Source: an uncultured Acidimicrobiaceae bacterium (GTDB lineage: Bacteria > Actinomycetota > Acidimicrobiia > Acidimicrobiales > Poriferisodalaceae). Taken from it: a DNA stretch of 36,605 bases. The notes beneath the pieces are model-generated. The model was not told where the DNA came from and did no database searches. It saw only the letters and a list, made by a program, of their open reading frames with translations. Numbering within the stretch: the stretch's first letter is position 1; each line of letters starts with the position of its first letter. Shown here piece after piece: positions 1 through 10,230 of the stretch. The position numbers were made by a program, and so were the translations under genes. Location of the stretch: positions 1 to 36,605 of the forward strand of contig CAJWBN010000008.1 in NCBI GenBank assembly GCA_913020735.1. Reading direction: 5' to 3'.

Positions 1-280
1 ACCGCCACCGGCCAGCCGCCACTCGCCGCCACGGCCGCCCTTCGCAACGCTCACTACACCCCCTTCCCACCCCATGCCTCCCCGGCCTAGTGCACCGCGA
101 CAGCCCGACCACGACGCCGCGGCGGCCGCGCCGCCGCAGGACACGGCCACGACACCCCAGCTAAGACCTCCATTTGCCGTGCCACCGCCGCTGCCGCCGC
201 GCCGGCCTCCGCGCCGATCGGCTTCGCGCCGCCGCTGTTGCCACTGCCGCTACCTTATTTCTGACGCCTGCTTCAATTCC

Positions 281-1375
281 CTATCTAAAAATACCCATAA
301 CGTCCGCTGCGCGCCCGGGACTACCTTGAGAGGTGGTGCTGGCGGCTCCCGAGTAGCTGTCTAACCCAAGAGCTGTTCTAAAGTCCGCAGATTCATCAGC
401 GAGCCCGGCGTCAAGTTGAATTCCTGTGGCATCCGCTAGCCGATTGAGTCCCTCAAACGCCGAGACGGTGGCCGCTGCTTCGATAAGGCCATGTGTTCCC
501 ACCGCAAGCTCAACTTCTTTCCGCACGCTAGGTAGGTCGCTGTCGCCTCTGACAGCCGACTCAGCGTAGCGGACGAGTAAGTCACCGTTGGTCACCTGAG
601 CTCCTGCTTCTAGTCGGTCGATGTTTACCTCGGAGCTAAGCGCTTCGCTGCTCGCACGGAGCAACGATACATGAGCTGCCGTTCAGTAAAAACACTCATT
701 CAGCGCCGACACTGTCGACGCCAAAAGTTCCACCTGCGGCCGCGAGAGTCCCCGATCCCAAACAAGATCAGCGAACTGCGCACCTCTGCTGTAATGCATC
801 TGGACTACTTCACGCCAGAGGATTTCGGTATCTGGAACCAGAGATGCTGCGCGTGAAACGTTTGCCAGGGATTTATCTACGGCTTGACTGACCCAGGCAC
901 CAACATCTCCTACCCCGTCTGGCCTTACCTGACTTGGAGAACCGTCACCTGCTAGTGGTAAATCGCGCAGTGGCAGGTCCAAACAACGGTTGAAGCTATC
1001 GATCACGTACTGAACGCAGATCACAGTGGCTAGCTCGACATAGGCTTCCTCAGTGATCGCGTCAATCACCCGCAATGCCCAGTCGTTTGACAAACGTCCG
1101 GGATCCGTTGTCAATCTATGGATTAAGTCAATAGCCGGGGCAGGTAGGGCAGAGACGCAATCGTGGTCACCGGCAACCATCGCAGGTGTAAGAGCTTCAG
1201 ATCGGGCCTTACATAACTCGCATCTAAGCGCCTGTCTTGCCTCGGCTATTGCTGCTACTCGTTCTGCGCCCGACCACCATGTGCCGCATTCACCTAAACC
1301 TTGCCAAAGACGATCGTGACCCGATGCAAGAGTCTCATTGAGTTCAATAGCTGCCGCATCGCTCGTGAGGGTCAT
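281..1375 (-). CDS. AhpD/carboxymuconolactone decarboxylase-like selenoprotein (alkylhydroperoxidase-related), with in-frame TGA (683..685) read as selenocysteine; 364 aa
   Basis: Track ORFs 683..1375 and 281..664 are in the same frame (1375-664=711=237x3). Read-through of TGA gives ...STVSALNECFY-U-TAAHVSLLRASSEAL..., restoring the AhpD CxxCxxxH motif as CxxUxxxH. A SECIS-like hairpin follows the TGA. Confidence 0.85.
645..685 (-). promoter_or_regulatory. Bacterial SECIS-like element of the AhpD-like selenoprotein (TGA 683..685, stem-loop 645..667)
   Basis: mRNA sense after TGA: ACGGCAGCTCATGTA-TCGTTGCTC-CGTGC-GAGCAGCGA. This is a 9-bp stem (one G-U) with apical loop CGUGC starting 25 nt after UGA and G at loop position 2. 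Confidence 0.75.
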
Positions 1376-9624: not shown

Positions 9625-10230
9625 TTATTTCAGTGGCTCTTCATCACCGTTAGCCATCGACATTTTCTCAATTACTCGGTCAAAAAACTCGTCATCCTGC
9701 AGGCCCGGCACCATGAGTTTGTTATCAATGACCCAACTCGGAGTTCCAGTCGCTCCCCATGCATGCGCACGTTCCATCGAAGAAATCACTGCTGGCCACA
9801 ATTCATCATTGGTGACCACTCTTTCGATTAATTCAGGGGGTACATCGAGGTCCCGCGCCAGGGTTGACAAAAATGCAGGGTCTTCGATATCTCGTTCTTC
9901 CACCCATATGGCTGCGAAAAGACGGTCATGATAGGTCTCTATAGCTTCGGGCGAGATATGTTCCACAACCAGAGCTGCTTGGTGTGCTTTCTTAGTTGGC
10001 TGAAACCGACTTGGCGGATTCATGACTACGCCGAGCTCATCAGCAATCGGCCGCAACGCCGAAAACTTTCGCTCATTTGGGCTACCACCAGCGGGAATCT
10101 CAGGGTGAAGTTCGTACGGAAGCCACGAAATATCGACATCCTGCCGCTCATTTAAACGGGCCGCCCGGGCCCGCGCCAGATGACACCAAGGTCAAAGAAA
10201 GTCGGACCAGACGATAATTGGCAGCGCCAT
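9625..10230 (-). CDS. DsbA/FrnE-like thioredoxin-fold selenoprotein with U-P-W-C active site; 201 aa; in-frame TGA 10192..10194
   Basis: The track ORF (9625..10056) lacks the N-terminal thioredoxin motif. Reading from ATG at 10230 gives MALPIIVWSDFL-[TGA]-PWCHLARARAARLNERQDVDISWLPYELHPEIPAGGSPNERKFSALRPIADEL..., placing TGA at the first Cys of the CPWC motif. The cis-Pro region GATGTPSWVI is present. Confidence 0.88.
10148..10194 (-). promoter_or_regulatory. Bacterial SECIS-like element of the DsbA/FrnE-like selenoprotein
   Basis: mRNA sense after TGA: CCTTGGTG-TCAT-CTGGCG-CGGGCC-CGGGC-GGCCCG-TTTAA-ATGA. The upper stem is 6 bp G-C, the apical loop CGGGC starts 25 nt after UGA with G at position 2, and a lower TCAT/ATGA helix lies across an internal loop. 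Confidence 0.75.

Follow-up and report, generated by a model that had tools for sequence, protein, structure and literature searches.

The locus examined here raises the question of whether a DsbA-like gene (DsbA1), in which an in-frame TGA is followed by a hairpin, makes a selenoprotein by means of an ordinary bacterial SECIS element, or whether the likeness of its loop to that of a second gene in the same stretch (AhpD1) reflects a recognition code peculiar to the lineage. The window, i.e. the whole stretch of 36,605 nucleotides that was analysed, belongs to a marine Acidimicrobiia MAG, whose best named relatives include Acidimicrobiaceae SP219 (98%) and MedAcidi-G3 (82%). The features of DsbA1 are the following, in window positions:

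9625..10230, minus strand: DsbA-like selenoprotein gene (DsbA1; FrnE/2-hydroxychromene-2-carboxylate isomerase type), assigned by PF01323
10192..10194, minus strand: in-frame TGA, read as a putative Sec codon for the first residue of the CxxC motif (UPWC), conserved in orthologs
10156..10174, minus strand: predicted SECIS hairpin with a 7-bp upper stem (+18..24 with +30..36) and the pentaloop CGGGC, from RNAfold and RNAalifold
10148..10183, minus strand: proposed lower helix TCAT/ATGA (TCAT 10183-10180, ATGA 10151-10148), present in the minimum-energy fold and not conserved

The gene starts with the ATG at 10230 and closes with the 3'-end stop TGA/TAA at 9627-9625. Reading through the TGA at 10194 yields a product of 201 aa, MALPIIVWSDFL-U-PWCHLARARAARL..., in which U is followed by PWCHLARARA..., with a match to the DSBA domain PF01323 (E 4e-25) and with FrnE (5cnw/5cp1) and SCO1869 (3gl5) as its nearest solved relatives. 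Ordinary gene calling recovers only a 143-aa fragment from a TTG, and DsbA1 would otherwise be mis-annotated as this fragment or as two pieces. The TGA occupies the same site in 30 out of 30 close ortholog loci fetched (39 genomes of the GTDB family), within the context WSD[FY][LIM]-U-PWC. More distant homologs (L215-L217) read CPWC, i.e. they have Cys where DsbA1 has the UGA, and no equivalent +25 hairpin was found in them.

Counted from the TGA, the stem strand CGGGCC lies at +19..24 (10173-10168), the loop CGGGC at +25..29 (10167-10163), with a G at loop position 2, and the stem strand GGCCCG at +30..35 (10162-10157). For the window sequence, RNAfold gives the six G-C pairs and the one G-U pair of the upper stem P = 0.96-1.00, and the minimum free energy is -13.7 kcal/mol for the hairpin alone and -15.8 for the region; an Rfam search of the window returned no match. 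An earlier sequence-only reading had described this same hairpin, CGGGCC-CGGGC-GGCCCG with its loop at +25 and G in second place, above a TCAT/ATGA lower helix, and its coordinates proved exact, with the feature reaching 10148. As for the lower helix, TCAT (+9..12) and ATGA (+41..44) do pair within the minimum-energy fold of the window's DsbA1 sequence, but among 27 ortholog sequences only 53% of the cells are paired, and owing to this lack of conservation we rejected a functional role for it.

In the upper helix, 90.5% of the cells are paired in the consensus helix (27 ortholog sequences), and the G at loop position 2 is present in all of the ortholog sequences. Covariation in the stem stayed within that of shuffles (one upper-stem pair, columns 24/36, with 6 both-side changes), and because it is this weak, the case for the stem is carried by synonymous constraint. 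When 68 conserved degenerate codon columns were compared in 28 aligned orthologs, the two lowest entropies belonged to Ala GCC (+22-24) and Ala GCG (+28-30). The third bases of these two codons make up the loop-closing pair C24-G30, and the constraint is centred on precisely this pair (p = 2e-4, 4/6-fold codons). It is concentrated likewise in the AhpD paralogs.

Furthermore, the source genome encodes a SelB that scores above its curated cut-off, a SelA directly upstream of it, a tRNA-Sec that reaches 64.3 bits and has the anticodon UCA, and SelD, the gene of which itself contains an in-frame TGA. Comparison of the SelB C-terminus with the C-terminal domain of E. coli SelB gave a weak, separate aligned stretch that includes RK...TRRR. 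The DsbA1 element and the Sec machinery are present and conserved, with selection acting at synonymous sites, and the predicted decoding of the DsbA1 UGA as Sec is well supported by these comparisons. Very probably, DsbA1 carries an ordinary bacterial SECIS element giving Sec at this UGA, and the likeness of its hairpin to that of AhpD1 would follow from a general loop requirement, namely a short loop with G in second position, placed 16-37 nt downstream of the UGA. By analogy with known systems, we infer that a SelB-GTP-Sec-tRNA complex would bind the apical loop through the C-terminal winged-helix domain of SelB, that SelB would contact the second loop base, a G, and that selenocysteine would be delivered at the UGA to give the UPWC redox motif.

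One alternative is that the real SelB-binding hairpin of DsbA1 lies further downstream, at about +30 and with the loop GGUCC/GGUUC, the +25 hairpin being incidental. Of the 10 members of genus g6, 7 have this structure as the one preferred by RNAfold (P 0.5-1.0), and the GGU in its loop would agree with that of other selenoprotein genes. However, its P is 0.0 in the window species, where the loop would be GGCCC, without the U; it leaves the invariant C24 unexplained, and RNAalifold chooses the +25 hairpin for the DsbA1 orthologs. We regard the downstream hairpin as a very unlikely site of SelB binding.

Two further observations concern the position of such hairpins in relatives. For several relatives, RNAfold favours a fold other than the +25 hairpin. 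In the DsbA1 orthologs of genus g6 (L038-L047), the predicted fold is mostly the +30 structure just described, with the loop GGUCC, which may represent a shift of the SECIS element within the gene. In a further ortholog (L035, from genome G036), the +25 stem is broken and a hairpin with a GGUC tetraloop is found at +21, suggesting turnover in the position of the element.

The second gene of interest lies on the same strand of the window:

281..1375, minus strand: AhpD-related CFYUT selenoprotein gene (AhpD1), NCBIfam NF041238 equivalog (E 2e-108)
683..685, minus strand: in-frame TGA of AhpD1 (CFYU), one TGA in the orthologs
645..667, minus strand: predicted SECIS hairpin of AhpD1 with a 9-bp stem and the loop CGUGC at +25..29 (658-654), from RNAfold

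Its TGA is kept in all close orthologs, and CTC-CGTGC-GAG is near-invariant among the main ones. In most relatives, too, AhpD1 and DsbA1 share a strand and are some 9-10 kb apart (e.g. G011:C1:140217 and 149108), and the neighbourhood is therefore conserved.

Whether the two loops follow a code of the lineage was addressed with the other selenoprotein genes of the source genome. It holds at least ten, comprising three AhpD CFYUT paralogs, two complete DsbA-like genes, SelD, two peroxiredoxins and two WUPPC proteins (contigs C5, C23, C10, C7, C19, C84, C108 and C100; loci L125, L148, L185, L251, L234, L239, L244 and L249), and the survey of loops and spacings covers the ten that were gathered by targeted searches:

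AhpD1: loop CGUGC at +25
DsbA1: loop CGGGC at +25
AhpD3: loop CGUGC at +25
AhpD2: loop GGUCU at +25
SelD: loop CGUGU at +33
DsbA3 (DPIUPWC): loop CGUUG at +22
Peroxiredoxin TPGUT: loop CGUGACC at +22
Two WUPPC thioredoxin-like proteins: loops GGUCG and GGUCC, both at +21
BCP-like peroxiredoxin TPGUS (contig C84): a clear SECIS hairpin was sought downstream and none recognised

An additional gene, DsbA2, is cut by a contig end in the source genome, and in relatives it has the loop CGUGC or GGUNC at +21. Among the BCP-like peroxiredoxins (TPGUS/TPGUT, 152 aa; L239-L243), we also observed a conserved in-frame TGA without recognisable bSECIS, possibly accompanied by a non-standard element.

The sequence-only reading was right that both AhpD1 and DsbA1 carry SECIS hairpins and that their proteins are unrelated (PF02627 and PF01323, respectively). 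It also correctly argued against two chance stop mutations, as TGA is present in all close orthologs (~30 genomes) alongside the full Sec-decoding machinery. Its central proposal, a lineage-specific loop CGNGC at +25, fails: it had suggested examining the genome's own selenoprotein genes for this loop and had named deviating loops and spacings as the outcome that would speak against it, and these are what the survey returned. A SelB that recognises a specific C-G-N-G-C pentaloop at a fixed spacing of +25 could account for three of the ten genes (AhpD1, AhpD3 and DsbA1), two of which, however, owe their identical loops partly to descent because they are paralogs. Against it stand the seven other genes, which differ in loop and/or spacing, one of them without a clear hairpin, and the variation among the DsbA1 orthologs themselves, of which 4 in 30 have CGU and one has A at loop position 1. 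Such a SelB rule is very unlikely, and as a strict consensus of the lineage, CGNGC at +25 is ruled out by the other selenoprotein genes of the source genome.

What recurs in the source genome is a loop start of C or G, followed by G and then U (G only in DsbA1); nine of the ten genes have G at position 2, and eight of these nine have U at position 3. A covariance model of the +25 elements, searched in four genomes, gave 16 matches below 1e-8, all to AhpD1/2/3 and DsbA1, with the next best at 0.04; its source families match by construction, and the result shows only that no further such +25 element stands out. The general bacterial SECIS rule suffices for the loops of this genome, and the likeness between AhpD1 and DsbA1 is no special lineage code. 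A milder version, in which the SelB of marine Acidimicrobiia would have a somewhat retuned preference for S-G-U-N-N pentaloops, while also admitting loops whose base is a C.C mismatch (CGNGC) and discrete spacings of 21, 22, 25 and 33 nt, is unlikely, although less so than the fixed rule; if true, the clade would depart modestly from the bacterial SECIS code in both loop and spacing. The SECIS set of one genome provides a useful natural panel for SelB tolerance.

Regarding chance, bSECIS-like hairpins whose stem reaches 6 bp or more turn up at ~15% of the positions in the window and in 26% of the randomised versions of the DsbA1 stretch (protein fixed, synonymous codons redrawn at the codon usage of the window), and since such hairpins are this common, the one in DsbA1 is weak evidence by itself. 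Stems of this length that carry a pentaloop exactly at +25 are rarer, with 0.28% of the positions in the window; the figure falls to 0.07% if the second loop base is to be G, and to 0.004% if the loop is to read CGNGC. In the synonymous redraws, the stem length observed at +25 is reached with P = 0.03 in DsbA1 and P = 0.005 in AhpD1. Throughout the source genome, the pattern TGA-N23-C-CGNGC-G has 28 matches (10 in the reversed control), and stems of 5 bp or more are seen only in those of AhpD1, DsbA1 and AhpD3. That the DsbA1 TGA is a sequencing error, the mark of a decayed gene or a true stop, followed by a chance hairpin, can draw on the 15% and 26% given above but is exceedingly improbable given a TGA kept across a whole family of genomes, a complete Sec machinery, the synonymous constraint and the Cys that distant homologs have at this site.

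Recognising the hairpin as an ordinary SECIS element adds a Sec-using disulphide oxidoreductase to this group of uncultured marine actinobacteria. A literature search on selenoproteins of MedAcidi/Acidimicrobiales found no paper specific to them in the collection searched, and for this reason the size of the selenoproteome may be undescribed for the group.

Among known systems, the loop of the E. coli fdhF element is AGGUCU, which DsbA1 does not strictly resemble; AhpD2 of the source genome has GGUCU. The bSECIS model describes a loop of 3-9 nt, an upper stem of 4-16 bp, 16-37 nt from UGA to loop and an energy of at most -7.5 kcal/mol, and requires that one or both of the first two loop bases be G, frequently with G or U as the next base (PMC13188914). 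The DsbA1 hairpin falls within this description: its 5-nt loop has G in second place and is separated from the UGA by 24 nt, its stem has 7 bp, and its energy is -13.7 kcal/mol. As in bSECIS elements of the E. coli fdhF type (PMC13188914), its hairpin sits inside the coding region directly 3' of the Sec-UGA, and its G in second position is followed by another G. In contrast to the commonest loop of the model, N1-G-[G/U]-N-N2 with N1 and N2 paired (PMC13188914), the two ends of the DsbA1 loop, C...C, do not pair.

With respect to the proteins, the Sargasso Sea study of 2005 described selenoproteins of both the DsbA-like UxxC and the AhpD-like CxxU type (PMC1088965), and 'DsbA 1' was commoner in marine samples in the GOS study of 2008 (PMC2398784). 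DsbA1 shares with these DsbA-like proteins (PMC1088965, PMC2398784) the PF01323 domain, a Sec that opens the CxxC motif, where homologs have Cys, and a marine bacterial origin; no difference from them was found at the level of family and motif. NF041238 corresponds to 'hypothetical protein 1' of the Sargasso Sea work (PMC1088965 / PMC13188914), and AhpD1 (281-1375) agrees with this CFYUT family in its equivalog match and CFYU motif. The lineage differs from the family as known in having up to three Sec-containing members per genome, one of them with a GGUCU loop. Each selenoprotein family encountered here, and the SECIS signal, is of a known kind.
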